NCBI GenBank assembly: GCA_003194525.1
Contig: NBIV01000026.1
Location: 310,001-374,000, forward strand
Length of the DNA: 64,000 nt
Reading direction: 5' to 3'
From: Gracilariopsis chorda
Taxonomy: Eukaryota; Rhodophyta; Florideophyceae; Gracilariales; Gracilariaceae
Part shown: positions 13,663-59,811 of the stretch, one piece after another
Layout: every line of letters starts with the position of its first letter
Numbering within the stretch: the first letter of the stretch is position 1
Notes under the pieces: model-generated
The model's input: only the letters and a program-made list of their open reading frames with translations
What the model was told of the DNA's origin: nothing
Databases searched by the model: none
Program-made: the position numbers and the translations under genes

Positions 13663-14292
13663 ATGGCAGAGAACGCTCGTGACCCCCCAGGGGAGGTGGA
13701 ACGCTTACCAATCACCGTATCGCACGGGACCCCGCAGGGGACGTCGCAAACACCGTTCCCGCATACGCGGCAAAAACCCCGCAAGCTCGCGGTTCGCGAA
13801 GAAGACCGCACTCGCGGAGTCCAAGTCCCCCGCCGGTTGGCGGTTTGCCCAGCCTACCGTGATGACGGGAACAACGACGCCCCTCTGGGGAATGACTTGC
13901 CGGTGAAAACCGTGACGCCACACACCCTCTTGAGGGATATCTTCCCGCATGCGCAGTGGCCACTAGGACAGCGCACGGCAACGCCGGAGACATCGCCGAC
14001 AACCCGGATGGGGGCCAACATACCGCACAGCGGGCAACCCTCGCAAGGGAGTACAACCACCACCCGGCACGGCCGGCAGGTCTACGAGCGAAAGTTCGCA
14101 GTAGACCGACTTGTCGGACACACCTGGGACCAGGATGGTATTCTACAATACCGCGTCCGCTGGTACGGCTATGACCCCAGTGGGGATACGTGGGAGCCAA
14201 TTGAACACCTCCCACGATCGCAGGTCGTGCGATACCACCGTCAAAGGGGAACTGCAGCCCCAGCCACGCTGGTTACTGCCCAATTCGGGTAA
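13663..14292 (+). CDS. E1 chromodomain frame
   Basis: A 209-codon frame, different from the preceding pol frame, whose C-terminal 65 residues form a chromodomain: RKFAVDRLVGH, then YRVRWYGYDPSGDTWEP and IEHLPRSQVVRYH. The aromatic and acidic positions that bind methylated histone tails (F, W/Y, WEP) are present. In chromoviruses this domain follows integrase and steers insertion into chromatin. The N-terminal part is Pro/Arg/Thr-rich with no recognised fold. In both E1 and E2 the domain is out of frame with the end of pol, so it may reach the polyprotein by splicing or frameshifting, or the frames may be broken by indels. Confidence 0.75.
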   Translation: MAENARDPPGEVERLPITVSHGTPQGTSQTPFPHTRQKPRKLAVREEDRTRGVQVPRRLAVCPAYRDDGNNDAPLGNDLPVKTVTPHTLLRDIFPHAQWPLGQRTATPETSPTTRMGANIPHSGQPSQGSTTTTRHGRQVYERKFAVDRLVGHTWDQDGILQYRVRWYGYDPSGDTWEPIEHLPRSQVVRYHRQRGTAAPATLVTAQFG

Positions 14293-14479: not shown

Positions 14480-16267
14480 TCACTCTTCGCCGTCGCCCGG
14501 GGCGTAACCACCAGCGAGGCGGTAGGCCAACGCGTCCGCCCTAGTGGTGACATCCCCCGATACCTCGGCAGCGCTCAGACCGGCACCCCGGAGAAAACGT
14601 GCGATGATCTCGTTTTCATTCGCCGTCACCCCATTGGGGATAGAAGGTCCGGCACTTGCCGCCGAAGAGTCAGCAGCCGGCTCGGCCGGAGATATCCCCT
14701 CTGGGAAAGCTTCCGCGCTAGCGCTGGTTTCCTCTACGTTCATCTCCCCGGGTTCTTCCGGTTCTTTATCGACCATTGGGTCATCCCCGCCGTATGCGCG
14801 GTAGTACTCGTCAGAATCGATGTACCCCACAGGTTGGTCTTCCGGCACATGCCGGGGCGCATCCCGAAGCTCGCGCGCCTCCTCAGAGGAAATTTTCCGG
14901 AACTCCCAGGGGTCAAAGTAGATAAAATCCCCCGCAAGGGCGGTGTTTCTACCCAGTCCCGGACCACCGGTGTTATCGCTGCCGCCATCCAGACGACCGC
15001 TTTGCTCCAGAGGGACCTCACCCCAGCTAACGCTGTCGATGTACCCAAGTAATTGGAGGATCTCTTCATTGGGGTCCTGGCCCCCAAGGGGGATGCGAAG
15101 ATCCAACTTGCGGATTTCTGCCCGCACACGCGGTGGGAGGAACCAGAGACGAAACTGGTCGTACGCCTCGTTGAGGATATAAGCCGCAGCGCGGGCCGCC
15201 CACTCCGTAACCACTACGGACCACAATCCCGACCGGGGATCCTGCATGAGCAACGAACCGAGGTACGTAAGTACCGGCGAGAGTTCTATGTAGCACCCCC
15301 GGCAGGCTTCATGGAAGCGCCACCACTCGGGGAGTGCTACATACCGACCTAGTCGGTGAGGCGGCGCAATCCGCTCTATCTCCACGTTCTGATACGGGAT
15401 GAAATACCCGAATCGGGATCGCCAACGCCGCTCATAGCAGATGAATTTTTGGAGAAAGTTGGACCGGTATTGCCGGGGAAGATACCTGAACTCCGCCCGA
15501 ACAATCGGTGGCTCCCAACAAAGGGCTTCTTGCCGCGCTGCGGGGATGTTCCTCTAAGCGAGGGTCTCGAGGCGGAACAGGTTGTCGCCGTACCCAATCT
15601 CCCCGCGAGTGCGGAAGTAGCTAATGTCGAAGCCGAACTCCGGTGGGTCCGGTACATCGAATGGAGCCCGACTCTGCCGTTGGTATGCCATGCGGGTCAA
15701 CGCAGTCTGCGCTGCAGCGACAGTCTCGCCCGAATTCTTTCGGAGGTGGTGACGCGGAATGGCAATCCGGTGACGCCAATCCCACGATTTGGTGACTGCT
15801 CTGGGCAGATCCCCCGGAAGGGTGTCTGAGCCATCTGCATAAGCGGTGACCAATCCCTCATTGAGGACAGCGACCGCGTGAAACCATGGGGAAAGGCGCA
15901 GGCGCGACGCTTGATTCCGATTCATCGGGTTGAGCCCCACCAGGGTGTTGTAGGTTGGCCAGTTGAACGCCGGAGCGGTTCCGGAGGACCCCATCGAAGG
16001 TGGTATTGCGAAGGGATGGTCGGCTGTAGCAGCCATATTCCCCGGTTGTACCGGATGTCGATCGCCCTGACGCAGGGAAACTGACTGGAAACCGGTGGTG
16101 TATCGCCCGAGAGGCCTCGGAGGTTGGCTGTTGTTGTTGATGTTGTTGTCGTTGCTCATTACTCCCTTTTCGAGGGTGGCTTTTGTTGTTGTTTGTGCGC
16201 TCGATGACTCTGGTGCAGAGGGATTTACCGGAGAACCGGAGACAGAGCACGCGCTTTTATCACCCAT
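14480..16267 (-). pseudogene. E1 antisense gene (aORF), one in-frame stop
   Basis: On the minus strand one frame runs from ATG 16267 to TGA 14480, 596 codons counting the stop, interrupted only by TAG at 15554-15556. Both halves align in order with the intact E2 antisense protein: WFHAVAVLNEGLV, the block VRAEFRYLPRQYRSNF, PYQNVEIER, EWAARAAAYILNEAYDQFRLW, LDLRIPLG, GDFIYFDPWEF and an acidic C-terminal region with DDPMVD. The start lies 57 bp inside the 3' LTR boundary, so a promoter would be in that LTR. No membrane segment, zinc finger or catalytic motif is visible, and I do not recognise the family. Antisense extra genes in this position are known from some plant Ty3/gypsy elements (Grande, Retand); similarity to those cannot be judged here. 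Confidence 0.8.
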
Positions 16268-22876: not shown

Positions 22877-22998
22877 AAGAGCGGAGCGTGCCGATGCAGT
22901 CGCCTATATAAGTGGCGAACCATGGGGCAGCCCCGGTACCTATGGAGTGATGCAACACACGGTCAAGCGACATCCTCGAGAACTCTTCTCTTTGCCCA

Positions 22999-24222
22999 AT
23001 GATACATACACCTTTTAACCAAACTTCGCAACAGCATCAACAGCAGCCACTTGCGTCGACTCCCGGTACAGTACCGACTTGCCAGACGGCACCATTGCCT
23101 CAGACGCAGCCGTTCGCACCGCCGTACATCTCGTACACTGCGGTATTCCGCCCTCCTCAATGCCGTCAACAGTGAGCCTTCCCGTATCCGGTGGACTTGG
23201 TTGGTGGAAACTCGATCAAGCACCCTGAAATCTTCGCCGAAGCATCGTGGTTTTATCCACAATCCGTCTGAGACGAGGATCACATCAATCAGTTTGTGAT
23301 GGCCGGGCGTCGTCCCGATGGATTCCCGCTTTATGCGGTTTACACTGAAGACTGGCTCGCCCACTGTGCTCTTCGAAATAACGTGATAGCGCAGTTTGGT
23401 AACGAGCGCATGGGCGAAGCGCGTGTCCGGTTCGCAAAGCTGATCAACCAGCGAGTACGAAAAATCATCGGGATGGTCCCCCTGGACGACATTTGGGAAT
23501 TTCATACCTGGGTATCCAGAAAAAATGGCGAAGCATACGCTTACGTGAAGAAACTCGGCAAACTCCGAACAAGCCGTTGGTGTGGTATACGCGGTGTCCG
23601 ACAGGAGGCCCTGTGCTTCTAACAACCACTGCTGCACGCGGAAATCCACAACATTAGGAATCGCGACATACCGCTCTGGAAGTTTTCCGTTGGTAACCTC
23701 CAACCAGGTCCAGACTGGGATTGGATTCCTGGTGAGCACGCAGCGCGTGGCAGTCGCGCGCGACAACGCGAATATCCCCGCGGAAGGAGGGCGGAAGTTG
23801 GTGAGTTCATATGGTATGATCCATCAACGCGTCAGCATATGAAACCGCAGCAAGCTTGCTACCTGCAGCAGAATCCCCGTGCGCAACCTCCCAATCCGCC
23901 TACTGGCTGTGTCTTCGAGCCGGAAGCGTTGATGGACTACGTACCCGAAGACGAAGACGTTGAGTACGACAATAAGCCTTACGAGATGGAGACGGATGCT
24001 CCAATGCCAGGAGACGATAGAGCGGTGGCTCTGCAACCCGCGAACCTGGGTTATCAGCAACCTAAGCAGAGTACTGCGAACGACCAGCCCCAGCTCAAAT
24101 TGCTGAGGCAGTTCCTCGAGGAGGCTGGCCTTCCACTGCACATAAATTGGGATGATCGTCAGCAACTGCTGGGATTGCTACGCATCAACCTGAGTCAGGA
24201 CCCAACTGAGCCAAGCTCCTGA
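22999..24222 (+). pseudogene. E4 antisense gene (aORF), three in-frame stops
   Basis: Opposite in sense to E4, one frame runs from ATG 22999 to TGA 24222 (408 codons) with stops only at TGA 23173, TGA 23269 and TAA 23620 and no frameshift. It aligns in order with the E1 and E2 antisense proteins: a Gln-rich N-terminus, ASWFYPQSV followed by DEDHINQFV, GNERMGEARVRFAKLINQR, RQEALCF (E1 has RQEALCW), VGEFIWYDP (E1 GDFIYFDPWE) and an acidic tail ending in LKLLRQFLEEAGL. The roughly 180-residue block containing EWAAR in E1/E2 is absent, a deletion or an older short form. Preservation of one frame while E4 gag and pol are shredded is notable. Confidence 0.7.
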
Positions 24223-24298: not shown

Positions 24299-27200
24299 TC
24301 ATTCCTCCTTCGTTGTAAGGTCATCAGTATTCTTTTCTTCCCTGCGATCAGGAGTTGTCCTTTTCGTTCCACTTCGGTGGTCCAGGGCATCCATTTTCAG
24401 CATGTTCACGAGCAAACCAAAGACAGCGTCCACGAGACTTGCTGGTAATAGCAGTTTCTTTGTGAGTCGATAACGCGCCACGTGCGACCGAGGTAGGTTC
24501 TCGATAGGTTCCCAAGTGTCCGCCTCGTGTGGTTAGCCGTACGATCGCGCTCGATATCGCAGCTTGAGGTCATCCTCTTCTAAAGCGTTATCATCGATGC
24601 GGTTGATAACGTACTCCTCCACGCCTTTGCGTGTCTGCGCGTTCGGGGAATCCCTTTTGGCGGGAGTATTCTCTTCTTGCACTGCGGTGTGTTTAGGTTC
24701 CTCAGTTTCCGAAATATCCCTATTTATCACGGTCGTCCGTACGTTCCTAGATATTTTCGGGCTTTTCCCGATTACGCTACAATTCGGGGTATGCGAGAGT
24801 GTCGGCGAAGACGAAGCCCTTGTGGGTACTGTACGCCTCGGCCATTTCTTTCGACGAAGTTCCGTATTGTCCGAGTTTGACTCGGGGTCGCTTCGAGGAT
24901 GAGCGGCTTCGGCAATTGCCAGTTGTCTGGAGGCGGACACCGCATAGGTCGTTTTCCGTGTGTCCACCAGTGTGGGTTCAGCGCTCACGATCTTCTCCCT
25001 TTGGAGTTTCTTTCCACTCCGGGGTGGGCCACCTTCCTTGGCTTTCTTGAAGCTGTGGTCAGCGGTTGCGTCTTCTTCACGAGGCTCTGGATGCTGAACG
25101 GGAGCGCGCTCTCCCCGTAGAAGCGGAACGGCGTTTGCGCCACTGTTTCCCGACCAATGAATGGTCGTCTCCGAGCTTCCCGGTCACACTTCACGTGTGA
25201 CAGCGCCAGCATCAGACCCTGGTTGCAGGATATTCTCCACGTGGCCACCTTGCGCCGATATGGGACGGGGTGCCGTGCTTATATTGCCAACGGACCTCCG
25301 TGGTCACACGGTCAACTTACTCTCGCTGAGCAGCAGCGGCGTATACTGGGGTTCTGTCTCGAGCGGGCTCGGGGGCTGTCATGACACGATTGCATGTGAT
25401 TCTTTCGACGTCGTTGTCTCTGCCGATTACCACCGTTCCCGAGTCAAGCTCGATTACCTCAAACAGACCAGACACTACTGGGGATAGCTTGTGACGTTTT
25501 TGGAGTTCTCTACTTCCTTCGAGTGTCGTTCCATCTGGCCTTTTAACCCGCACGAAAACGTGACCACCATCCCGGAGATTGGGAATTATTGGGCGCAGAA
25601 TGGCGTCGTACTTTTGCTGGTATCGGCCCTGGGCCTTTTAAAACCCCCTTGCAGCCTGCTTTGCGCGTCTCCTTAGGTCATCCCTTCACTTATGATGGTG
25701 GTTCGCCTCTGTCTGTGCGTCTGATTCGATGTCTCTTTCCAGAATTACTGGTAGTGACGGCGTGCGGCGAGATAGGACCAGCTCATAGGGAGCCATCTTC
25801 GTGTTCGAGTGGACCTGCTTGTTGCAGACGGAGCACAGTGTGTCTGTGTAGAGATCTCAATCTTTGGGGTGATCTGTGACGTAGTGCCGGAGAGCGACGA
25901 GGAGTGTGCGATTAAATCGTTCAACCTTCCCGTTTGTCCGCGGGTGCTAGGTCGTGGTAAACATGTTTCTCACGCCGAGATTGCCGCACACGTCCTGGAA
26001 GACCTTCGCAACGAACTGCTTTCCATTATCAGAAAGCAGATTCAGCGACGGACCGTACACGTAAACCCATTATCGGATAAAAGCCTGCGAAATAACTGCA
26101 TCCAAGATCCATTTGAGCGGTAGTGTCCGGGTTAGCTTCGAGAAGCGGTCCGTAATTACCAGTAGGTACCTATGTCCTCGTTTTGTGCAAATCAGCTCAC
26201 CTAGGATGTCAATACTGACGATCTATAAAAGCGCCTTCGCCGGGAACAGTGTCAGTGGCCGTTTCCTTTTCTAGAACTTGATGCAACTCTTCGCACATGA
26301 AGTACATAACTTCGCGGTAGCATGGCAATCCATCGCCATTTTTTGCAAATAAAGGTCTCTTCTGAGCGCAAGATAGAGCTTAGTTCCGCTTGGGTGTCTA
26401 GATAACTGGGAGGTACGCGCGTGATGCAAAACAAGACTATTCACAACATGTGGAATCACGATTGGATCTGATGCTTCGACGGTGAGAACTAGTACGCTTT
26501 CTTCACCAACACGAAAGGGTAACCTTTTCCCCCCCATTAAGACGGGGGCATATTGCAGTGCAGAGAGCGTCTGCGTGTTGCGCACTTAGGAGCTCTTCCA
26601 AAGAGATACGCTCGAGTTGTTTGGACGGTTCCGTATTGGTAGACTGAGCTATCAGTACGTCCAAAGCGAGTTTGTTCTCATCGTCTAATTCTTTTTCAGC
26701 CTCGGAGCTGGGGTCATAAAAAGGCTTGCCCTCGATCATGAAACATGGGATTACATCGTCGATATTCGTCTGGGTTTCTCCCAGTGTATTCAACCGCGAA
26801 AGCCCCTCTGCGTGAACGTTGGAACGCCGCTTTTTCTACTTGACATCAAAGTCAAATTCGGAGAGTGGTAACCGCCAGCGCATTAAACGTCCGGATGGGC
26901 CAGATATCGAGAGAAGCCAGCGCAAGCACGAATAGTCCGTATTGACGGTGAAATATACCCCTTCAAGATAGGGAAGTAGGGTCGGAAGAGCCCAAACCAC
27001 AGCAAAGCATTCCTTTTCGGAGACGGACTAGTTGTGTTCTGCTGTCTGCAGTGACCTTGATAAGTAATCAATTAATTTCGGTTTGCCATCAAGGTAAACG
27101 TGGAATAAGCAGCAACCCGAGTGGTACTCACTTGCTTCGGTATCGACAACATAAGGGAGCCCAAGTCGGGAGAGGGCCAATGCAGGTGCTGATACTAGCA

Positions 27201-42581: not shown

Positions 42582-42946
42582 TGTAACCACTGGTTGCATT
42601 TTAGACTTTTGTTGTGTCCAAACTATCTGTAGGATGCAGGCGATTTGGTCAAGGCTTGGGCATCCGCCAAACAACCTTGACACAGACGCTACATATCTAC
42701 CTTTAATTGTGAAATAGCACGCAACCCTTCGGGTGCGTTCGACAGTGCTGTAATCGGGCGACACCGACTTGGCTTGACGTGACTAGTGAAAAACAACTGG
42801 GCCTTTGGGCTCGGGCTATAAAGGCATCGCTCTCTAGTGGTAACGACTAGCAGAGTGAGAGAGCCGACGTGTTTTCTGTGGGTCGAAGAGAGCTCGAGGA
42901 CGATCAGCGGTTGACGAAGGGGGATCTATCCCCTTGAGTCGTTACA
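42582..42946 (+). repeat. E3 5' LTR with TATA box
   Basis: 365 bp with perfect 6-bp terminal inverted repeats TGTAAC/GTTACA. A TATAAAG at 42817-42823, about 130 bp before the LTR end, is a plausible promoter. The following bases GTAATTACTTCGCG do not begin with TGG, so the priming tRNA site is not the usual kind or is degenerate. Confidence 0.92.
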
Positions 42947-42997
42947 GTAATTACTTCGCGAAAGTGCTCTAGGGAAGTTATTCGTTCGGAGCCGAAG

Positions 42998-43591: not shown

Positions 43592-43706
43592 CGGGCACCA
43601 TTACATGAACGAGTGCCCGATCACGTCAGACGAGGATAAGAAGAAACTTGTCACCGAGTACCACGAGGCGAAAAGGGCCCGCAAGGGGCCGAAAAGAAGC
43701 GAGAAG
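43520..43706 (+). pseudogene. E3 nucleocapsid zinc knuckle in the +1 frame, cut by E2
   Basis: The frame overlapping the gag end reads CLNPVCDGHHYMNEC, a C-x4-C-x3-H-x4-C zinc knuckle, followed by a basic stretch (KRARKGPKRSEK) up to the E2 insertion at 43706. After E2 the protease continues in the original gag register, so two compensating shifts are implied. They may be mutations, or genuine frameshifting. Confidence 0.6.
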
Positions 43707-44620
43707 TGTAGTGCAATACATTCCCGCGTACGGGCGATGGTGAAACTCATATCTGAGGTGTACTCGGTGCGAGCGATGAAGCGGGATGCATGAATTTTAG
43801 CCCCCGTTTACCGGGCTAATTAGCGGTCGGGTTACCCAGGGTGGTTATGGGAACATTCATATTTTGTTATACTTGCCTGGCAAGGGTGGTGGACACGTGG
43901 CTACAGCCCCGGCCAGGAGGCCCAAAACGGCTACTTATTTTAGTATAGTTTAGGGGTTAATTTTACTTAGGCTAGTGCACTACCTACTGTACTGCACTGA
44001 GCTAGTACTTGAGCGTCGGCCGCACGGCGGCGAGCTCACCAAGAAAAGTAACAAGAGTTCGGCTCTGACTCTATTCGCCATGCGAAGTGTCTAACTCCTC
44101 GCGGAGGTACACCGCTTGCCCGATAGTTTCACCCGACTCGCACCACCGAGGAGACCGTGCTCGTCGTACCCAGTGGGTTGTGACCACTCGTGGTATTCGT
44201 TGTTGTCGTGTGACCGCCCGTACAGGCCCTATCTCCGCCCCAGTTTTGGGTATTGATATTAACGACGTGTGTCGTGAGACCGTGAGACCATCCCTTCCCC
44301 TCATATCCCCTAACCGCCGCGCGGTGCGTGTTCGTGTGTGTGTATCGGCACCCCCCCTCCGGGGTCTGTTCCCGCTTTCCGCACGCCCCCGTCGGGTGGT
44401 CCCTTTCCCTCTTTTGTTCCACTGTTCGCAGGCTACTTCCGGACCAGCCGTGGTTCCGACCCGTTCTAACCCCTAAACCTCCGAGGTACATCCAGGCTCC
44501 CGACGGAGTTACACCCGTCATACGGGACACGGAGGGCTCTACCCAGCTGGGCCTACCTCTCCAAGAGAGCAAGGCTTCGAGCTGCCTTGGGTGCCTTTCC
44601 CACACCGGGATTGCACCACA
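43707..44620 (+). repeat. E2 5' LTR
   Basis: 914 bp, TGTAGTGCAA ... TTGCACCACA, the same termini as E1 LTRs, and a recognisably related last 150 bp, but the body is diverged: a distinct subfamily. The weak TATA-like TAGTATAG at about 43942 is a possible promoter. Confidence 0.95.
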
Positions 44621-44622
44621 AG

Positions 44623-44640
44623 TGGTCTCCCGACCTAGAA
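44623..44640 (+). promoter_or_regulatory. E2 primer-binding site, tRNA-Tyr type
   Basis: TGGTCTCCCGACCTAGAA starting two bases after the LTR, identical over 18 bases to the E1 site. Confidence 0.8.
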
Positions 44641-44772
44641 CGGGTTTGGCTTCCAATCCGGCCTGTCGGAAGTCCGCTTCCCCTTTTTTTTCCTTTTATC
44701 CCTTTTTGCTCATTCGTTGAGATTCCCAAGCCGTGGGACTGGTGAAGTAAGCCGTGGACGGCTATCTGCAGT

Positions 44773-46815
44773 ATGCTACCCACAGCTCCGAGGTCCCCCA
44801 GGAATGGTCCGCAACGGAAGGCCGCAGCGGCGAGATCACGAAGGTCCGTTCCCGAACAACTACTTACCAATGCCGTCGGTCTGGAATCCCAAGGAATCCC
44901 ATCGGCAACCTCGGTGCCTCGAGCCGTGACAGCTGTGGCCACTATGCCACCTCCGGTGGTCGAAACGCCGTCGGCTGTCCCCCCGAGATCCGGGTCGCCT
45001 AAGTACCATCTCCTCGAGTCGAGAATCGACATTGCCAATGTGGCCCACGCCTCCCTCTCGCAGCAAGTTACCGAGTTGGAACGGCGATGGAGTGACTCCC
45101 TGGCTCGGGATTACTCGGGAGATATTCGTCTCCTGAGAGCTGATGTGAATTCCATTCTGGAGTGTCTGGGTACTCCGGCTGCCTTCGTAGAAGGATATCG
45201 GGAGTTCGTGGAGGAAGTTAAAACCCATATGATGCGGGTAACCGGACGTATGGACACGCTGGAAGCGTTGCTCAGAGAAGACCTGAACGCTCCGAGACAG
45301 GAGGAAGTGAAGGTCATCTCAACCCAACACCGCTCCAGTCACCTCCCCCGTCACCCTGGAAAGAGAGTTCATCGTTATGAAGTTTCGCCAAGTTCCGACT
45401 CGGAAACAAGTTCGAGTAGCTCGTCTTCGAGATCATCGCGTGAAGGGAGAGGCCGCCGTCGCGGAGAAGAACCTAGTTCGAGGGCTACCTACACCTCCCA
45501 TGGAGCAATCCGTGCGCGGGAGAAAGGTCGCCGTCATTTCGGCTTGAAGGAATTGAAACCGACGAATCCCCTTTACAGGAAGCTGTTGTCCTATCGTTAT
45601 TACCGATTGGAAGACTCTTCGGGCACTCGAAGTTCGAGAGACACCGGTCGGGTGAAGGATCTCATACGTCGTATGAATGTGACGATGCTTAAGCAGAAGT
45701 TCTCCGGTGAAGATCCGATCCTCGTGTTGGATTTTCTGGCCCGCTTTGTGCAGGAAGCAGACGTACTCGAAATGAGTGAGGCGCAGGCATACGTTGCGTT
45801 GCCCTACTTTCTTTCAGGAATGGCTGAAGATCAGTACAACTCGGTCAGGGGTTCGTCCAGGGCCTCAGAAGGAGGTGTTACGTGCTGGCCCGAGGCTGTA
45901 CACTACCTGCTCAGGTCGTACGCGACGGGAACTGCAATCAGTCAAGCCATCGTGGCGGTTCGCGATACGAAACAGAAGCCTGGTGAAACGGAAACGTCGT
46001 ATTCAACTCGCTTGAATAAAGCGTTTCATCGTTGTGGAAATGTGTTTACCGCTTTTGAGCGTTGCTCCATGCTGGTGGATGGTTTAGATCCTGGTATCAG
46101 GGCACTGGTGTCCCGCTACAGGGAAGAGAAGCGCAAGGCGACGTATCTGGAACTGGTCCAGTACGCGCAGGCTGAGGGTGACACCCTCAGAGCGAGAGAC
46201 CCGAGGCGTCGGTCGTCGAAGGCTCTCTTCGTCGAGAACGAGGCTTCCTCGGCATCTCTCCCTAACCCGGGACCACCTTCCGGATTTGCGGATAACATCC
46301 AGTATCTTGGCAGTCTTGAACAGTCGTTGGCAACCTCGGAACTGCCGTCCACGATTACACCACCCGTGGTAGATCCGGCCTTTTACGCAAACCCCGGTCG
46401 GGTTCCCCCAGCCCCGCTAGCCTACGCGTCGAGCGCCACAAGACACTCCCGCCCGGGATGGTCCAACCCGAAGCAACTAGCATTCCAACCACAACACCCT
46501 CAGCACCGCGGAATGATGTCCCACGCCACCGGAACACGTTCAGCCCCGCTGATTTGCTACATTTGTTACCTTGAAGGTCATACTGCGTCGCAGTGTACCC
46601 TCCCCATTCGCGAGATGTGGAAGATCGTGGGAAATTATGAGAATCTCCCACCGGAGCATAAGGCTCGTGTCCCGAGTAATTCGTATGAAGACGCAAAGGC
46701 TGCGGTCCACAATGCTCAAGCTCGAGAAGCCGCGAAAACCGCGAACGGTAACAACCCTAACCTTTCGGAACGGGCTCAGCCGCACCCAGCGGTCGATTCG
46801 GTCCCGAAAAACTAA
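44773..46815 (+). CDS. gag: E2 Gag (capsid and nucleocapsid)
   Basis: 680 residues from ATG 44773, the first ATG after an in-frame TGA at 44743. Residues 1-150 are variable; 200-240 are Ser/Arg-rich (SSSDSETSSSSSSSRSSREG when spaced); 255-500 form the capsid-like domain (ILVLDFLARFVQEADVLEMS, GGVTCWPEAVHYLLRSYATG, LNKAFHRCGNVF, TYLELVQYAQAEGDTLRARD); residues 595-608 are a CCHC zinc knuckle CYICYLEGHTASQC (C-x2-C-x4-H-x4-C). It would assemble particles and bind element RNA. It ends AAA AAC TAA at a candidate frameshift site. The frame has no stop or shift, unlike E1 and E4, so it is recently functional. Confidence 0.93.
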   Translation: MLPTAPRSPRNGPQRKAAAARSRRSVPEQLLTNAVGLESQGIPSATSVPRAVTAVATMPPPVVETPSAVPPRSGSPKYHLLESRIDIANVAHASLSQQVTELERRWSDSLARDYSGDIRLLRADVNSILECLGTPAAFVEGYREFVEEVKTHMMRVTGRMDTLEALLREDLNAPRQEEVKVISTQHRSSHLPRHPGKRVHRYEVSPSSDSETSSSSSSSRSSREGRGRRRGEEPSSRATYTSHGAIRAREKGRRHFGLKELKPTNPLYRKLLSYRYYRLEDSSGTRSSRDTGRVKDLIRRMNVTMLKQKFSGEDPILVLDFLARFVQEADVLEMSEAQAYVALPYFLSGMAEDQYNSVRGSSRASEGGVTCWPEAVHYLLRSYATGTAISQAIVAVRDTKQKPGETETSYSTRLNKAFHRCGNVFTAFERCSMLVDGLDPGIRALVSRYREEKRKATYLELVQYAQAEGDTLRARDPRRRSSKALFVENEASSASLPNPGPPSGFADNIQYLGSLEQSLATSELPSTITPPVVDPAFYANPGRVPPAPLAYASSATRHSRPGWSNPKQLAFQPQHPQHRGMMSHATGTRSAPLICYICYLEGHTASQCTLPIREMWKIVGNYENLPPEHKARVPSNSYEDAKAAVHNAQAREAAKTANGNNPNLSERAQPHPAVDSVPKN

Positions 46816-46840
46816 TCTTGGGAGTCTCCCCCACGGGAGG
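46806..46840 (+). promoter_or_regulatory. E2 candidate -1 ribosomal frameshift site
   Basis: GAAAAAC then TAA closes gag; a -1 slip enters the pol frame. Nine bases downstream of the UAA is a 6-bp stem TCTCCC (46825-46830) with GGGAGG (46835-46840), loop CCAC, with one G-U pair. Stem arms match E1 while the loop differs. Confidence 0.6.
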
Positions 46841-46874
46841 GGTGTCTTCCAAGCCGAAGTTGAAGACGCCTTAG

Positions 46875-49800
46875 GCGCCACCGCTTCGCTCCCCTGCCAA
46901 AATCCTTACGAGGAAACTGGCTCAAGAAGACGTGAGCTCGGACCACTTAGTGGCTCTGCGTCGTCCGTGGATACGGTCCCGTAACCTCCGCATCCCGGAT
47001 CGAGTTTTGGTAATGGCCAAGAGGAACTATAAAGTTTATAGTGACCTCGGTCTCTCTAACCAGTTCATGGTTCGTCAGTTATCTGTCCTGGATACAGGTG
47101 CCGCTCCGAACCTGATCAATATCGGGATTATTCCACCCGCCATGCGGAAATGCATTCGCATTGGTCCAAGTCTGGATCTGGCGGACGCTAATAACAACCC
47201 GCTCCAGACTCTTGGAACAATTCCTCTGGTACTCAGACTAGGCACCTACGTGGTGAAGTTGGACTTCATCGTATGCGATTCTCTTGCTGCACCCGTCATC
47301 CTCGGTTGTGATTTCTGTGACCGCTTCGTGGAAGCTATCCGCCCTCGCTCCAGATCCGTAGAATTGGCCAACGGTTCGACCATCCCGATTGTACGGAAGC
47401 CCTTGCGACACGCCTCCCGTAAACGGGTACCTTTACCTGCTGCTCAGGAAGCGTCCAATGTGGATCGAGCATCTACGAAGATTCGCGTCGCGGAACCAGT
47501 TTCGATCCCGAAGGAATCTCAGGTATGGGTCTCAGTAACATCCAAACACCACGGGTTGCAGGTTGTTCAACCGCTCCCCTCGCTCTACGAACAGCGCCGT
47601 CTCGCATTAGCAAATGGGATCGTATCCGTCGAGCCGGACAAACCCTTTAAGGTTCTCGTTGCTAACCTCGGAACTACCACTCAGTGGTTGGTTAAAAACC
47701 AGGTCCTGGGCAACATGCTTCCGCATCCGTTGGCTATCCTTCCTACAAAGATTCCGATATCCGACGTTCTCGGAATACAAGACCCTAAGGAGGGGGAGGA
47801 GGTCCCGTTCGTTCCGTTGGATTCCGCCCGGGAAAGTTCAGATTCGACTGTCGAAGAAGCTCAGAAGAGCACGACTTCAGCATCGGCAGATACTGCGTTA
47901 GACCCAGAACAGGCTTTGGATAAGTTGGACCTGGATCACATTAATGAATCTCATCGTGAGAAGTTTCGTGACATGCTCAGGGACTTTACCGCCATGTGGG
48001 ACGGTTCCCTGGGGACGATAGGGGTAACCGAACATCGGATTGATTTGTTGCCGGATACACGGCCTATTGCACAGCACCCGTATCGGGCAGGCCCTAAAGC
48101 AAGGGGGGAAGAGAAATCTCAGGTGGAGAAGATGCTGCGAGCTGGAGTTATCGAAGCAGCACAATCCCCTTGGGCTTCTCCTGTTGTCCTTGTTCCGAAA
48201 GCCGATGGATCATGGCGTTTCTGTGTGGATTACCGCCGCCTGAATGCGGTTACTGTCAAGGACGTCTATCCGATTCCACTAATGGACGAGTACATTGACT
48301 CCCTGGGGAGCGCAACGGTGTTCACTACCCTCGATGCCAATTCGGGATACTGGCAGGTCCCTATTAGGAAAGAAGATCGTGATAAGACCGCGTTTGTGTG
48401 CCATCAAGGACTATATCGCTTTAAGCGAATGCCGTTTGGACTAACGAATGCCCCAGCTACATTCCAACGGGCAATCGATATCCTCTTGGCGAGGTTCAAA
48501 TGGACCAGCTGTCTGGTATACTTGGACGACATTATAGTGTTCTCCAATAACTTGGACGATCACCTGTCCCATGTCCGGGAAGTCTTGACAGTGCTCCGCA
48601 ACGCAGGCATCACCCTGAAGCTGGGAAAGTGTGAGTTCTGCGCCGATTCGGTAAAATATCTGGGGCACATCATCCGCCCCGGACAGCTTTCAATCGATGA
48701 AGCAAGAGTGAAATCACTTCGAGAGGCGAAACATCCGACTAATCAAACGGAGCTTCGATCCTTCCTAGGACTTTGCAATGTATATCGCCGATTCGTTCCG
48801 AACTTCGCCGACTTGTCAGCACCGCTTAACGCACTCCTCCGGAAAGGACAACCCACCGAACTGGACGTCTTTGACGAGGCTGAGTCGTCAGCATTCTCGT
48901 CTCTTGTCGACGCTGTAACGTCCCCGCCAGTTCTGGCCTTACCGCACCCGGACTTACCCTTCGAAGTGGATACTGACTCAAGTGCCCACCAGGTGGGTTG
49001 TGCGTTGTTTCAAGTCACGGAAGAAGGAGAAAGACATCCGATCGGATATTGGTCACGTTCGTTGAACGTTCACGAGCGCAACTACTCGGTGTCCGAGAAG
49101 GAGTGTCTTGCTGTTGTTTGGGCGTTGGCAACGCTTCGCCCATACCTTATGGGTAACCATTTCAAAGTTCACACCGATCACTCGGCTCTCCGTTGGCTAC
49201 TCGAAATTCGAGAACCGTCGGGCCGCCTCATGCGTTGGCGTCTCCGACTCTCGGAATTTACATTTGATGTCCTCTACAAGAAGAGATCCCTGAATACTCA
49301 GGCTGACGCCCTATCGCGCTTAGGAACATCAGCGGAAACCGAACCGGTCGACGATCTGGAAATACCATGTTTCATGGCACAATCCCCGGAGGGAACGGAA
49401 GAAGACGACCCAGACGTGAATGGGGATGACATCTGTGACGATATTCTGGCTGCAAACCCTACGGATCCTCCGGATGACCAGGTTGTTCCCATATCCTCTG
49501 AGGAAATGATCCGTGAACAACAGCAGGATCCTTTCTGTGCCCAGATTCGTGCCCGTCTTAACGGGGGCGCACAGATACCCTTTGCGGTGAACGATCGAGG
49601 CTACCTAGTCAGGTTGCTGACACGGGCCCCACAGATCGTTGTACCTCACACGCTGCAGCAGCGCGTCTTGCATCTATCGCATTACGCGAAGTTGGGTGCA
49701 CATCCCGGCGGGAGGAAACTATACCTGACCCTTCGCAGGGACTTCTATTGGCCTGCTATGGCATTTGACTGCTATGCAGTTCGCCGCTCGTGCGTGGAAT

Positions 49801-51233
49801 GTGCGAAGAATAATGTGAAACTTCGGAAGTACTCGAAGAAGTTAACACTATTCCCGGCACGGGCGCCACTCGAATATGTCGCTATTGATATCTTGGGCGA
49901 GCTTGTCAAAACCAAACGTGGTTACAAGTATCTTCTCGTCATTACTGACCGCTTCTCAAAGTTGGTGAGAACAGTACCGCTTAAACGGATTACCGCGGAC
50001 GTGGTTGCGCGTGCGTTCGTAACCCACTGGGTCTTTACTTACGGCCCGCCGGTACACCTACTCTCCGACAACGGATCTCAATTCACCTCAAAGTTCTTTC
50101 AGGACGTATGTAGAATCTTGGGAATCAAGAATATGTTTACTACCACCTACCACCCGCAGTGTAACGGACAAGTGGAACGATTCAATCGTACTATGCTCAA
50201 CGCACTGCGCGCGTATGTCGCGGATCACCCCATGGAATGGGACTTGTACACGGACGCTATTACGTACGCGTATAACACCCAGGTACACCGGGTCACGACC
50301 CTCGCTCCATTTGAGCTGGTCCTGTCTCGGATTCCGCCACCCATGGCTATTGAAGCGCAACCGAACGTCTCGGGGTACCCTTCACCAAGGTTATATCGAG
50401 ATTCCTGGAAGGAATGGTTGAAGAACATGGTCCCTACCGCCCGAAAGGCTATGGGAAAAGCCCAGGAGGCATACAAACAGAACTTCGACGCGAAGATTCG
50501 TTCCCCGATACCCCAGGTCTCGGAAGGGGATTCTGTCTTCCTGCGAAAGGAATATTATAATCCCGAAAAGGAGAAGCGCCACAAGTTGTCACCGATAGTG
50601 AATGGACCCTATCGGGTGGTTTCCGTCGCCGACGACACAGTCGTACTGGACATCGATAACCAGTTCGAACGCGTCTCACGCGACCGCGTAGCCCACGCGC
50701 CTGCGCCCCCTGAGGGCTCATCACCGCTCGTGACAATCCCGGAGGATGACCTCGTAACTCGGCCAACGGATAATCTGCTTCCGTCCCGCCCACCCGTCTT
50801 ACCGCACCCGGAACGGGGACTCTCGGATCTTCCAATTGCCGATCAACCGGTTGGGCGCGCCGCGCGTATCGTGCAACGCACGCTTGACCCCAAACGCCTA
50901 ACCGTTACTCCGCCCGCGGAGGTCCTTCATCCTGAACCCACCGCCCTCTCACCTAAGGAGGGGGAGGAACGGGAATCGATCGCGCCATCGCGGAAGGAAG
51001 CTCCGGCGTCGGACGGTGTCCCGTTTCATACGGCATCGTCGGATGAACACCCCCAGAGCAGGGAGGAGTGGAACACATCTCGAAGCGAGAAGGCCGTCTC
51101 CGCGGACCCGGATGCACTCCTGTCGAGCGAGTCGCTGGGTAGCGAAGGAGGAAGTAGTGAACCGGACTCGGTGTGGTCACTAATGTGGCGAATGATATCT
51201 CCGAGCACGGAGCACATACAACCTCGTTCATAA
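46875..51233 (+). CDS. pol: E2 Pol polyprotein (protease, RT, RNase H, integrase)
   Basis: Open from 46875 to TAA 51233. There is no ATG until about 47013, so it is expected to be made as a Gag-Pol fusion by -1 frameshifting at 46806-46815; the only obstacle is TAG 46872-46874, where E1 has Glu. Residues counted from 46875: protease VLDTGAAP (Asp about 73); RT with [14 protein letters not shown] and YLDDIIVFS (549-557); RNase H VDTDSSAHQVGCALF (about 697) and HTDHSALRWLL; integrase zinc finger LSHYAKLGAH ... CVECAK (about 930-975); core triad in AIDILGE (about 1003), LSDNGSQF (1064) and GQVERFN (Glu about 1100); GPY motif NGPYRV (about 1243); then a Pro/Ser/Glu-rich tail. It copies the RNA to DNA and integrates it. 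Confidence 0.93.
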   Translation, partial: APPLRSPAKILTRKLAQEDVSSDHLVALRRPWIRSRNLRIPDRVLVMAKRNYKVYSDLGLSNQFMVRQLSVLDTGAAPNLINIGIIPPAMRKCIRIGPSLDLADANNNPLQTLGTIPLVLRLGTYVVKLDFIVCDSLAAPVILGCDFCDRFVEAIRPRSRSVELANGSTIPIVRKPLRHASRKRVPLPAAQEASNVDRASTKIRVAEPVSIPKESQVWVSVTSKHHGLQVVQPLPSLYEQRRLALANGIVSVEPDKPFKVLVANLGTTTQWLVKNQVLGNMLPHPLAILPTKIPISDVLGIQDPKEGEEVPFVPLDSARESSDSTVEEAQKSTTSASADTALDPEQALDKLDLDHINESHREKFRDMLRDFTAMWDGSLGTIGVTEHRIDLLPDTRPIAQHPYRAGPKARGEEKSQVEKMLRAGVIEAAQSPWASPVVLVPKADGSWRFCVDYRRLNAVTVKDVYPIPLMDEYIDSLGSATVFTTLDANSGYWQVPIRKEDRDKTAFVCHQGLYRFKRMPFGLTNAPATFQRAIDILLARFKWTSCLVYLDDIIVFSNNLDDHLSHVREVLTVLRNAGITLKLGKCEFCADSVKYLGHIIRPGQLSIDEARVKSLREAKHPTNQTELRSFLGLCNVYRRFVPNFADLSAPLNALLRKGQPTELDVFDEAESSAFSSLVDAVTSPPVLALPHPDLPFEVDTDSSAHQVGCALFQVTEEGERHPIGYWSRSLNVHERNYSVSEKECLAVVWALATLRPYLMGNHFKVHTDHSALRWLLEIREPSGRLMRWRLRLSEFTFDVLYKKRSLNTQADALSRLGTSAETEPVDDLEIPCFMAQSPEGTEEDDPDVNGDDICDDILAANPTDPPDDQVVPISSEEMIREQQQDPFCAQIRARLNGGAQIPFAVNDRGYLVRLLTRAPQIVVPHTLQQRVLHLSHYAKLGAHPGGRKLYLTLRRDFYWPAMAFDCYAVRRSCVECAKNNVKLRKYSKKLTLFPARAPLEYVAIDILGELVKTKRGYKYLLVITDRFSKLVRTVPLKRITADVVARAFVTHWVFTYGPPVHLLSDNGSQFTSKFFQDVCRILGIKNMFTTTYHPQCNGQVERFNRTMLNALRAYVADHPMEWDLYTDAITYAYNTQVHRVTTLAPFELVLSRIPPPMAIEAQPNVSGYPSPRLYRDSWKEWLKNMVPTARKAMGKAQEAYKQNFDAKIRSPIPQVSEGDSVFLRKEYYNPEKEKRHKLSPIVNGPYRVVSVADDTVVLDIDNQFERVSRDRVAHAPAPPEGSSPLVTIPEDDLVTRPTDNLLPSRPPVLPHPERGLSDLPIADQPVGRAARIVQRTLDPKRLTVTPPAEVLHPEPTALSPKEGEERESIAPSRKEAPASDGVPFHTASSDEHPQSREEWNTSRSEKAVSADPDALLSSESLGSEGGSSEPDSVWSLMWRMISPSTEHIQPRS

Positions 51234-51622
51234 CCAGTTTCGTGGTGAGCTGAAAAGCAACCGCGGACACGGAGAGTGTGGTTGACACTGCGTGCGTTAC
51301 CGCAGAGCCCTACAAATGGACACTGTGACGCCACTGTCACGCGGACGAAGCCCGAAATTCCAAACCGTGGAAAGGTGTACACGTACATACCGCCGGCCGG
51401 CGTCAGGAGTACAGTCAAGACCCGCGTCGTGGAAAGACCGCGCGCGACACTTGCCGCCAGCGGCCAGCCAATCACAGTGTGTGATGCATGGCAATCCGCC
51501 TCCTGGCGTCGGAACCGTAGTGAACCGCCTCCCTCACCGTGAACGGTCAAACTCACCAGAGTTGCACGGGTCGCGTGGGAGAAGAGCTCGCGAGCTGCGC
51601 GTCAATAGGGGAATCCGGTTAG

Positions 51623-52018
51623 AACGGAAGGCCCCCCCCCACAAGGAGAGGATTAGGAAGCGGAAAGACCGCAATGCGGTATCAAGTCCCAGCACTCGCA
51701 GCGTCGAGGAAAGCTGACTTTGCCCGCAGGGTCGCGCCAATTTCAGGCAAGTCCCCTCACAGGGTTCTCCCCTTAAGCCCTGCCATGACGGGTCAGGAGC
51801 CGGCTACGTACGACCAGGAGTTTGTCGTTGACCACATCGTGGATCATGTTCTGGACTCCAAAGGAGTGTGGTTTTACCAAATCCGATGGTACGGATACCC
51901 CCCGGAAGAGGACACATGGGAGCCCATTCAGCACCTTCCTCGTTCCAAGGTGATAACCTACCACCGCCGGACGCGGTTCCCACTCCCATCCACTTTGGAC
52001 ATGGCCCAGGTTGGGTAG
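51623..52018 (+). CDS. E2 chromodomain frame
   Basis: Frame opening at 51623 (first ATG 51674) and ending TAG 52018. The last 65 residues are a chromodomain: EFVVDHIVDHVLDS, FYQIRWYGYPPEEDTWEP, IQHLPRSKVITYH. It is about 390 bp downstream of the pol stop and in another frame. An intervening frame (51292-51717) could feed into it by slippage at a run of nine C (51632-51640). Without splicing, frameshifting or recoding the domain would not be joined to integrase. Confidence 0.8.
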   Translation, partial: NGRPPPTRRGLGSGKTAMRYQVPALAASRKADFARRVAPISGKSPHRVLPLSPAMTGQEPATYDQEFVVDHIVDHVLDSKGVWFYQIRWYGYPPEEDTWEPIQHLPRSKVITYHRRTRFPLPSTLDMAQVG

Positions 52019-52354
52019 GACGATACACTGCACTATGCAGAAGATTCCGAAGACGGAAGAGAAGTCTCCGAAGAGAAGAGGACACAGGAAGAGATCTGGC
52101 TACAGAAGGTTACACGAAGTAATGGACTGGATAGGGAAACCAATGGTCATTGGACGTCACACCGCCTAGCGGTCCGACCGAAGTAACGGTTTAATGAAGA
52201 ATACCGCCTAGCGGTCCAGCATGAAGATGCTATGAAGAAGAAAAAGAAGAGTCCGGACATACGGATATAGAAGAAGGAAGTCGTTTACCACAAGCTATGG
52301 AGCGTTAAGCGCTAACCTATATCAGGTGTGTGTGCCACGGTCCAGGATCCTGAC

Positions 52355-54196
52355 TTAGGATGAGCCGCTCGTTGGCGGTTGGTAGTTCGCAGACGCGAAA
52401 GCCAATAACTCGCTCACGCTGGTGAGGTTGGAAGGCGCAACCACTCCAATGGACTGGAGGTGAGCCCTGAGGGCAACGGCCTGAGGGTCCACGGGGACCG
52501 GAGATGCGGTAGACGGAGACGCAGCCACACTGGCGGCCATATTCCAGCCATCTGGAGCAGCCACATGCTGGCCGGATCCGTCGAGATCGTCGACCATCGC
52601 CGTTACCGGGGCTACGGCCTCCTCCACCTCATCGGGGTCGTCATCCACCATTGGATCATCCTCGTAGGAACCGTGCCAGTCATCGGAAAACATGAACCCA
52701 ACCGGGTGGCCTCGCGGAACGGAGCGTGGTACATCGCGTAACGCTAGCGCGTGAGCCCGTGAAGTCACGGATACCTCCCAAGGGTCATAGAAGACGAAGT
52801 TGCCAGCGTTTGGATTTCTCCGGCCTGGAGAGCGATCATGCCTGGAAGGCTCACCGTCAGGGACGTTGGAGACTGGGACTGTATCCCAGTTAACCATATC
52901 GATGGTGTTCAGAAGGCACTGAAGCTCATCCACATTGGCTTCGGATCCCAGAGGGATATAGAGATCCAATCGGCGGATAACCTGGCGTAGGTGAGGAGGA
53001 ATGTACCACAGACGGTTCTTGTCGTACACCTCCCAGAGGAGAAATGCGGCAACGCGAGCAGCCCATTCGGCGAGGAAGAGAGTCCAGTAACCGGAATCCG
53101 GATTGTTGATTAATCGTGAACCGATGTAGCTGAGGCACGGAGGCATCTCCGCAAAGCATCCCCTCGGGACTTCGAACCTGCTCCACCAATGGGGAAGAGG
53201 TGCATACCGGCCGCGCATCGCGGATGGACGGAGCCTCTCGACCTCGAGATTTTGGTATGGTACCAGGAACCCGAAGCGGGAGCGCGCCTTTCGCTCAAAC
53301 CGGAGTCGGTCGAAGAAGGATCCGCGATGATTCGGACGACGAAGATATCGGAACTCTGCACGCAGAATTGGGCGCCTCCAGAGGAGCATCCCGGCTTCTA
53401 TTGGAGTGGACCGGAACGGTGTAGATGGCTGGTAGGCAGCAAGGTTCTCGCAGTATGAGACTTCACCGTAGGTACGGTACCGCGAGAGGTCAAAGCTGTA
53501 TTCCGTTGGTACCAGCTCATCCGGATAACTCGCGCGGGCGAGACGGTCGTAGGCGACCTTGGCCATCCCGGCACGGGCTTCATTCAGCGTCTCGAAACCA
53601 TATCTGGTGCGCTTCCGTGCGAGGAACTGTGGCTCTACCGCGATACGCGTCCTCCAGTCGAAGGAGTCGACCATATCCCGGCCTAGTCCCCCTGGGAGCT
53701 CGCCCTCCTCCACATAGGAGTCGATGAGGTCCGAGTCGGAAACCCATGTGGGGTGGAACCAGGGCGCACGCGAAAAGAGGAGAGCGTCTTCCCGGGGAAT
53801 GCGGGCCCAAAGTGTCGACGGTGACACCCAGCCGGCGGCGGTCGCAGTGATCGGTATCGCTTGAGCGGAATTCCAGGCGGCGATACTCGCGGCATCCGAG
53901 GCATCCAAGGTTGGAACATGAGACGATCCTCCAGGCAGAGGCAAGGAGAGGAACCCAGAGGATGGGTGACGAACCCACGACCCCGGCGTCGCGAAGGAAG
54001 GTTGTCCGCTCGCGGAAGTCCCCTGCGGGGCGCCCGCAGGCGGGTTGTTCGAAAACGGAGTGTTGGTCATAGTAGAGAGGGGCGCGGAGTCTGTTGAAGA
54101 AGGTACTGAGGGTTGATCAGTTGTAACCGTGTTGGTACGGGGGACCGGTATCTCGGCGATTCCCTTGTCGGGACTATTTATACAATCGCGCCTCAT
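52355..54196 (-). CDS. E2 antisense gene (aORF), intact; novel family
   Basis: Minus-strand frame with ATG 54196, 51 bp from the 3' LTR, and stop at 52355 (613 residues; the frame is open a further 20 codons to 54256, inside the LTR, without an ATG). N-terminal 90 residues are Ser/Thr/Pro-rich. A core of about 400 residues is rich in Arg, Trp and Tyr (PWFHPTWVSDSDLI, LRAEFRYLRRPNHRGSFFDR, PYQNLEVERLRPS, EWAARVAAFLLWEVYDKNRL, RRLDLYIPLG, NFVFYDPWEV). It is followed by an acidic segment (DDPMVDDDPDEVEEA) and a helical end (LRAHLQSIGV, VSELLAFASANY). No transmembrane helix, signal peptide or zinc motif is seen. Homologues lie at the same place in E1 and E4. Transcription would need an antisense promoter in the 3' LTR. 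Role unknown. Confidence 0.85.
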   Translation of the reverse strand: MRRDCINSPDKGIAEIPVPRTNTVTTDQPSVPSSTDSAPLSTMTNTPFSNNPPAGAPQGTSASGQPSFATPGSWVRHPSSGFLSLPLPGGSSHVPTLDASDAASIAAWNSAQAIPITATAAGWVSPSTLWARIPREDALLFSRAPWFHPTWVSDSDLIDSYVEEGELPGGLGRDMVDSFDWRTRIAVEPQFLARKRTRYGFETLNEARAGMAKVAYDRLARASYPDELVPTEYSFDLSRYRTYGEVSYCENLAAYQPSTPFRSTPIEAGMLLWRRPILRAEFRYLRRPNHRGSFFDRLRFERKARSRFGFLVPYQNLEVERLRPSAMRGRYAPLPHWWSRFEVPRGCFAEMPPCLSYIGSRLINNPDSGYWTLFLAEWAARVAAFLLWEVYDKNRLWYIPPHLRQVIRRLDLYIPLGSEANVDELQCLLNTIDMVNWDTVPVSNVPDGEPSRHDRSPGRRNPNAGNFVFYDPWEVSVTSRAHALALRDVPRSVPRGHPVGFMFSDDWHGSYEDDPMVDDDPDEVEEAVAPVTAMVDDLDGSGQHVAAPDGWNMAASVAASPSTASPVPVDPQAVALRAHLQSIGVVAPSNLTSVSELLAFASANYQPPTSGSS

Positions 54197-54233
54197 CTCC
54201 TCACGCCTATACTCGCGTTCGTTTTCGGCCCTT

Positions 54234-54246
54234 AAGGAGGGGGATG
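54234..54246 (+). promoter_or_regulatory. E2 polypurine tract
   Basis: AAGGAGGGGGATG abuts the 3' LTR start TGTAGTG. Confidence 0.8.
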
Positions 54247-55160
54247 TGTAGTGCAATACATTCCCGCGTACGGGCGATGGTGAAACTCATATCTGAGGTG
54301 TACTCGGTGCGAGCGATGAAGCGGGATGCATGAATTTTAGCCCCCGTTTACCGGGCTAATTAGCGGTCGGGTTACCCAGGGTGGTTATGGGAACATTCAT
54401 ATTTTGTGGTACTTGCCTGGCAAGGGTGGTGGACACGTGGCTACAGCCCCGGCCAGGAGGCCCAAAACGGCTACTTATTTTAGTATAGTTTAGGGGTTAA
54501 TTTTACTTAGGCTAGTGCACTACCTACTGTACTGCACTGAGCTAGTACTTGAGCGTCGGCCGCACGGCGGCGAGCTCACCAAGAAAAGTAACAAGAGTTC
54601 GGCTCTGACTCTATTCGCCATGCGAAGTGTCTAACTCCTCGCGGAGGTACACCGCTTGCCCGATAGTTTCACCCGACTCGCACCACCGAGGAGACCGTGC
54701 TCGTCGTACCCAGTGGGTTGTGACCACTCGTGGTATTCGTTGTTGTCGTGTGACCGCCCGTACAGGCCCTATCTCCGCCCCAGTTTTGGGTATTGATATT
54801 ACCGACGTGTGTCGTGAGACCGTGAGACCATCCCTTCCCCTCATATCCCCTAACCGCCGCGCGGTGCGTGTTCGTGTGTGTGTATCGGCACCCCCCCTCC
54901 GGGGTCTGTTCCCGCTTTCCGCACGCCCCCGTCGGGTGGTCCCTTTCCCTCTTTTGTTCCACTGTTCGCAGGCTACTTCCGGACCAGCCGTGGTTCCGAC
55001 CCGTTCTAACCCCTAAACCTCCGAGGTACATCCAGGCTCCCGACGGAGTTACACCCGTCATACGGGACACGGAGGGCTCTACCCAGCTGGGCCTACCTCT
55101 CCAAGAGAGCAAGGCTTCGAGCTGCCTTGGGTGCCTTTCCCACACCGGGATTGCACCACA
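54247..55160 (+). repeat. E2 3' LTR
   Basis: 914 bp, differing from the 5' LTR at about three positions, followed by target duplication AGAAG. Confidence 0.96.
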
Positions 55161-55165
55161 AGAAG

Positions 55166-59016: not shown

Positions 59017-59381
59017 TGTAACCACTGGTTGCATTTTAGACTTTTGTTGTGTCCAAACTATCTTTGGGATGCAGGCGATTTGGTCAAGGCTTGGGCATCC
59101 GCCAAACAACCTTGACACAGAAGCTACATATCTACCTTTAATTGTGAACTAGCACGCAACCCTTCGGGTGCGTTCGACAGTGCTGTAATCGGGCGACACC
59201 GATTTGGCTTGACGTGACTAGTGAAAAACAACTGGGCCTTTGGGCTCGGGCTATAAAGGCATCGCTTTCTAGTGGTAACGACTAGCAGGGTGAGAGAGCC
59301 GACGTGTTTTCTGTGGGTCGAAGAGAGCTCGAGGACGATCAGCGGTTGACGAAGAGGGAGCTATCCCCTTGAGTCGTTACA
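59017..59381 (+). repeat. E3 3' LTR
   Basis: 365 bp, same ends as the 5' LTR, TATAAAG at 59252-59258. About nine substitutions and no indel relative to 42582-42946. A short purine stretch AGGGG precedes it. Confidence 0.92.
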
Positions 59382-59811
59382 GGTTCCAGCAGGGCGCCTC
59401 GGGGCGAATAATGTGGCAACCACGAAGGTAAAGTATGATCGCCAAAACTCTCTCGTTGGTAGACAGTTTGAATTTTCTTCCAGCAGAGCTAGCAAGCAAC
59501 TCGCGGGTGTGGCGGTTGCGCAAAGCAGTAACGGGGCAGATATATTGACATAAGCCCTCCAATTCCCGCTGGAATAGTCCTGTATTGACCTTGATGAGCG
59601 ATACGTGTCCGTTGATAAGATTGTCTAGGCGGCTTATTTTTGGGATCGAGGGGTTTATGGAGTGGTCGCCATTTTACTCTTCCTGCAGATCGTTTATCAG
59701 GTGCAGAAATAGTTGCATAACTGAACTGCATGCCGTAAAGAGAATCTTGGTGTGCGAAATAATTGCTATAGATGTTCTTGTGGTATGCCGCAAGTCATCT
59801 TCGCTATCCAT
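59382..59811 (-). pseudogene. Harbinger transposase, N-terminal half
   Basis: From ATG 59811 (MDSEDDLRHTTRTS) the frame runs to the E3 insertion point, with one in-frame TAA at 59674-59676. It ends FKLSTNERVLAIILYLRG followed by CHIIRPEAPCWN, and rejoins the catalytic half at 42581 in perfect register through the 4-bp duplication GGTT/AACC, reading CWN then RSRTSLRDD. This exact join shows where and into what E3 inserted. Confidence 0.85.

Follow-up and report, generated by a model that had tools for sequence, protein, structure and literature searches.

LTR elements of plants and of a fungus are reported to have additional genes in antisense orientation, to which no known function is ascribed (PMC7264820, in excerpt). 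The antisense gene of the plant element Grande is described as having its own promoter and a nuclear product (PMC7264820), and in Retand, a non-chromovirus lineage, 97% of the clusters encode the TRP28 domain (PF04195) in antisense orientation (excerpt of PMC11963269). Among retroviruses, the HBZ gene of HTLV is antisense and has its antisense promoter in the 3′ LTR (PMC7264820, in excerpt); its product is likewise nuclear (PMC11963269, in excerpt). Chromoviruses can also carry an extra conserved protein gene, such as the 5′ aORF of Tekay, which 500 of the 523 sunflower elements in one group possess; it lies upstream of gag-pol and encodes about 400 amino acids that are largely disordered except for three coils (excerpt of PMC11728184).

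The gene that we describe here lies in Ty3/gypsy elements of the red alga Gracilariopsis chorda and came to light in a stretch of 64,000 nucleotides (the window) of contig NBIV01000026.1. It resembles the genes of Grande and Retand in where it lies and which way it points, in being carried by most copies of a family and in its obscure origin (PMC7264820, in excerpt). However, those are elements of flowering plants, whereas the red-algal gene encodes a protein without a credible Pfam match and resides in chromodomain elements; what it has in common with Retand is the arrangement and, at the sensitivity of Pfam, not the TRP28 domain. The fungal element Boty of Botrytis cinerea also has an antisense gene, and can be likened to ours by arrangement rather than by protein comparison. 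HBZ is a bZIP protein, and nothing bZIP-like emerged from sequence or fold searches with the red-algal protein. Unlike the Tekay 5′ aORF, the red-algal gene is 3′, antisense and has a large core that is predicted to be folded. The antisense arrangement is thus known (Grande, Retand, RIRE2, Boty), as the first-pass annotation of this DNA had remarked, and it is the protein family that is new. Among the matches listed in our literature search (titles and the starts of abstracts, with few subscription papers), none described an antisense gene in red-algal elements. The red-algal case adds a distant lineage in which selection has been measured and open copies are numerous, and a protein whose core is predicted with confidence and is without known relatives.

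Carrier elements and families

The best-preserved carrier, E2, has all the features of a Ty3/gypsy chromovirus (Table 1): LTRs (99.2% identical by BLAST), a 5-bp target-site duplication (TSD), a polypurine tract (PPT), a chromodomain and a pol ORF whose Pfam matches follow the Ty3 order of reverse transcriptase, RNase H and integrase (RVT_1, 2e-38; RT_RNaseH, 9e-37; rve, 5e-14). Its gag ORF had no match in Pfam. The antisense gene is intact and lies between the chromodomain ORF and the 3′ LTR, where the first-pass annotation had placed it (52355-54196/54256, opposite gag-pol). Its stop-to-stop frame (52355-54256) reaches upstream into the 3′ LTR, and the first ATG, which opens the 613 codons, is 51 nt from that LTR.

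Table 1. Positions in the 64,000-nt window of E2, its antisense gene and the corresponding parts of E1 and E4.
Feature	Position	Strand	Remark
E2, Ty3/gypsy chromovirus	43707-55160	+	G. chorda contig NBIV01000026.1
E2 TSD	43702-43706 and 55161-55165		AGAAG, 5 bp
E2 5′ LTR	43707-44620	+	914 nt, TG...CA
E2 gag ORF	44773-46815	+	assigned from its location and from similarity to the corresponding part of E1 and E4
E2 pol ORF	46932-51233	+	RT, RNase H, integrase
E2 chromodomain ORF	51674-52018	+	after pol; Pfam Chromo, 4e-11
ATTAAA	52190-52195	-	poly(A)-signal-like; about 160 nt past the E2 antisense stop codon
E2 antisense gene (probable accessory gene)	52355-54196	-	613 codons; ATG at 54196, TAA at 52355-52357
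C-terminal helical motif	52358-52501	-	after the acidic linker
Core domain	52697-53827	-	377 aa; confidently predicted helical fold; strongest constraint
E2 PPT	54236-54246	+	just 5′ of the 3′ LTR; read directly
E2 3′ LTR	54247-55160	+	914 nt
E1 chromodomain	14083-14289	+	opposite strand; adjoins the end of the antisense gene
E1 copy of the antisense gene	14480-16267	-	one in-frame stop; ORFs 15554-16267 and 14480-15385
E4 antisense-gene remnant	23230-24219	+	stops; about 150 core residues missing
E4 chromodomain remnant	24416-24619	-	one stop

In all seven E2-family copies checked (L001-L007) the chromodomain is in a different frame from the end of pol (51233-51674 in E2), and it may be made via an intron, a frameshift or a separate ORF. 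Among the loci of the P3, C127 and P5 types, chromodomain and pol end share one open frame in 4 of 6, and a stop separates them in L060 and L063. E2 is itself inserted in an outer element with 366-nt repeats (42582-42947 and 59017-59382, 97.5% identical). This outer element has, by eye, a chromodomain-like pol end, and its last ORF ends at 58980; since that leaves no room for an antisense gene, some chromodomain elements evidently do without one.

E1 encodes the same protein as E2, as had been proposed, with one stop (tblastn over residues 99-558, 39% identity, E 2e-92). A further copy of the E1 LTR lies at 3329-4155; its identity to the two LTRs of E1 is 93% and 88%, and theirs to each other is 87%. 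The case of E4 is less simple. The gag-pol of this element is on the minus strand, which puts the antisense frame on the plus strand; there, at 23230-24219, homology to the E2 protein (tblastn E 2e-8 and 1e-6) was found as claimed, with three stops. The matches jump from residue 306 to residue 456 of the 633, which removes the PYQN, EWAAR and LDLxIPLG blocks, and RAEFRYL is degraded. The first-pass statement that the conserved blocks keep their order and spacing in E1, E2 and E4 therefore does not hold for E4, whose copy is a decayed, internally deleted remnant.

The 91.3-Mb G. chorda assembly, in which the window belongs to contig C26, contains many more copies. There are 73 scored matches of the E2 type, 48 of them open by a hand count (at least 600 codons, no stop), and 150 of the E1 type, of which 80 are open (at least 590 codons, no stop in the matched third). 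Scoring was confined to the top candidates (70 of 1682 for E2, 150 of 1206 for E1), which makes these counts lower bounds, biased towards good copies. With the database proteins P0003 and P0005 as queries, further diverged families appear, which share about 39-60% identity with the query. In all 24 loci checked, from three family groups, the 3′ end of the antisense gene has a chromodomain next to it on the opposite strand. In the E1, E2, P3, C127 and C246 types a PPT, and after it an LTR-like start, is present just before the ATG; the second LTR was seen, within the window, for E1 and E2. Being located between pol and the 3′ LTR, antisense, conserved, and open in most scored matches, the gene belongs with the antisense aORFs (aORF-3R).

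LTR elements can capture extra genes (PMC7264820, in excerpt), and the frame might accordingly be a host gene recently transduced, or a separate mobile element nested in a chromovirus. Against this, the position of the gene does not vary among families in which the antisense protein shares only about 35-46% identity with that of E2, and a recent capture is refuted by this divergence between families. Moreover, the eight relatives obtained from the protein database with a single sequence have neither a Pfam domain nor an informative name, and no relative was confirmed among the 10 and 34 pattern matches in scans of viral and of bacterial/archaeal contigs, respectively. We regard such an origin as quite improbable. 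The gene is probably an element-encoded accessory gene of a red-algal chromovirus group, carried through deep divergence under purifying selection.

Selection on the antisense frame

The antisense frame is a protein gene under purifying selection, as the first-pass annotation had suspected. Twelve hand-picked pairs of copies, some sharing a copy, were compared. In the ten with dS of at least 0.069 (four of them above 1.4), dN/dS is 0.16-0.45 in the antisense frame versus 0.93-2.46 in the shifted frames. The sister pair L089/L090, diverged but far from saturation (dS 0.324), gives 0.20 (95% interval 0.15-0.27). The constraint is strongest in the core, with dN/dS of 0.13-0.22 in all four pairs, against 0.36-0.96 in the flanking parts where measurable. 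Between families the synonymous sites are near saturation, and identity by codon position ranks 2>1>3 in all 10 family pairs.

Polymorphism among 20 open E1 copies agrees with this picture; these copies were mostly picked for being open, a bias against stops and not against amino-acid changes. Changes shared by at least two copies comprise 53 synonymous, with 30.7 expected, and 50 nonsynonymous, which puts N/S at 0.40 of the neutral expectation for the same mutation types (z 4.9). For singletons the figure is 0.79 (z 1.8). This difference between shared changes and singletons suggests that the E1 lineage is constrained while inserted copies drift. In four E1 copies (six pairs), dN/dS is 0.26-0.39 for pol and 0.38-0.63 for the antisense gene, values of the same order, pol being the more constrained in all six pairs.

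A dN/dS near 1 among copies had been named beforehand as a reason to give up the protein reading. Such values do occur in young sets: about 1.0 among the 27 E2 copies, above 1 in C127 (one pair), likewise no signal of selection in P3 (4 copies), and 0.84 and 0.92, each with an interval that spans 1, in the two very close pairs. These sets are uninformative on selection, E2 and P3 being too young, and it is in the diverged pairs that the low ratios are found. In P5 the shared changes stand at 0.82 (not significant) and the singletons at 0.61 (z 2.4). These figures come from loci with a long open frame (4 of 6 for P3, 2 of 6 for C127 and 7 of 12 for P5); L054, with a frame of 500 codons, was left out of the codon alignment, and the pol comparison drew on 4 of 6 loci, without L084 and L086.

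An open frame could also arise as the mirror of constraint on the sense strand, from a hidden sense gene or from codon bias, and encode nothing; this, too, had been named in advance as a refuting explanation. The mirror frame, in which the third positions coincide with those of the antisense frame, does fall below expectation (0.50 for the shared E1 changes; 0.79 for the E1 singletons, the same as the antisense frame), its dN/dS is 0.29-0.55 across the same ten pairs (dS 0.069 or more), and sense-strand ORFs of 100, 157 and 267 codons lie inside the antisense gene of E2, E1 and E4, respectively. However, the antisense frame is the more constrained of the two in each of these ten pairs and for the shared E1 changes, for which the shifted frames score 1.2-2.7. 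The mirror frame also has 18.6 stops per E1 copy, versus none in the antisense frame of copies that were chosen to be open, and with the same proviso the mean for the other five frames of these stretches lies, by family and frame, between 5.5 and 33.5 stops per copy. As for the longest sense ORF, that of E4 (22966-23766, minus strand), 57 of the 64 places that it matched contain a stop. The mirror explanation fails on the many stops of the matching sense frame and on its weaker constraint, and we reject it as extremely improbable.

Regulatory antisense transcripts have been proposed for plant and animal elements (PMC7264820, in excerpt), and it could be argued that here the antisense RNA, rather than a protein, is the functional product, acting through sense-antisense pairing or siRNA control. 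Selection that acts codon by codon on amino acids would be needless for such a role, which we find very improbable as the sole explanation; RNA and protein roles could nevertheless coexist.

The predicted protein and its possible role

Judged by crude features of charge and disorder, the antisense protein begins with a disordered N-terminus, continues with a basic core and an acidic linker, and closes with a short helical motif at the C-terminus. In the tail, residues 501-565 of the E2 protein have a pI of 4.05, with 16 acidic residues and no basic ones. Structure prediction at full length (10 sequences) was poor (pLDDT 52.8), and we have used solely the model of the 377-residue core, which was built from 17 alignment rows and has a pLDDT of 86.5.

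That no domain could be recognised, and that the protein might represent a new family, were both claims of the first-pass annotation, and both stand. Pfam offered no credible match for the family; PF04195 (TRP28, or Transposase_28) did not match at E<=1 in any of 10 family members, and a search of the whole genome with it was empty, with its control silent as well. The profile search of PDB sequences returned chance-level matches (best E 0.23), and the core model had no significant match among solved and viral structures. With no known domain found by sequence or by predicted fold, the family is a new one, and the modelled core fold is probably new as well.

A hydropathy of 1.6 is the usual mark of a membrane helix, and the best 19-residue stretches of three of the seven antisense proteins scanned exceed it (1.62, 1.85 and 1.99). 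Together with the place between pol and the 3′ LTR, where env-like genes sit (PMC7264820, in excerpt), this might suggest an env-like, movement or particle protein that merely happens to be antisense. However, the three high peaks fall in the central helix of the confidently predicted core, and the other four proteins peak at 1.0-1.3, two of them elsewhere. Furthermore, env-like genes are sense-oriented, and the orientation here is antisense in E1, E2, E4 and all 24 loci. We therefore think a protein of this kind unlikely, though some membrane contact by the central helix or a part in the particle may be possible.

Several features point to a transcription unit of its own. In five family types the ATG is, where readable, 38-61 nt from the LTR-like start, and such a start close to the 3′ LTR suggests that an antisense promoter lies within or adjacent to that LTR. 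At the other end, five of nine family representatives have AWTAAA on the antisense strand within 165 nt after the stop (117 nt in one case), as against none of the nine when the sense strand there is read; single-base shuffles give a mean of 0.25, and 0 of 2,000 reached 5. The five correspond to about three clades of the tree, four representatives are without the motif, and E1 was represented by a copy that bears it, as 15 of 20 E1 copies do. It is present in all 13 E2 copies with enough flank.

We infer that the arrangement is best read as a separate antisense transcription unit that encodes a trans-acting protein. Transcription would start in or next to the 3′ LTR, run antisense to gag-pol and end before the chromodomain. 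The protein might then act in trans by binding the nucleic acid of the element, chromatin or Gag/integrase, and in this way regulate expression, silencing or integration of the element. Charge, location and analogy are what suggest a part in regulation, in escape from silencing or in integration, and we propose the role of trans-acting regulator only tentatively, by analogy with the functions that have been suggested for the antisense proteins of Grande and Retand in plants or for HBZ in retroviruses. The more specific proposition, that chromoviruses of a broad red-algal group encode antisense a protein of previously unseen fold, which arose independently of TRP28 and HBZ and controls its element in trans, is rather doubtful as a whole. 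If an independent trans regulator it is, Ty3/gypsy-like elements would repeatedly have gained an antisense regulator that starts at the 3′ LTR. In any event, the red-algal gene provides a defined protein to express and solve, with which the idea of convergent antisense regulators of retroelements can be tested.

Database relatives and an annotated gene

In the protein database, where the best 8000 candidates of each search were scored, a profile gave 10 rows, three of them new relative to the eight relatives of the single sequence, and a more distant profile gave 5, again with three new ones. Those with an organism name are P0003 (G. chorda BWQ96_10156) and P0005 (Agarophyton chilense). In a tree of 26 proteins, the database protein P0001 groups with E2 (support 97/92). 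P0008 and P0013-P0015 form a very distant subgroup, set apart by a branch about 2 changes per column long, in which forms of 662-701 aa occur.

The best genome match of P0003 is on contig C355 (99%, residues 88-565), and at least one G. chorda gene annotated as hypothetical, BWQ96_10156, belongs to a transposon gene family. In L057-L062, copies that are open throughout, this protein aligns as two blocks about 70 nt apart; perhaps the annotated intron of BWQ96_10156 is an artefact of gene prediction.
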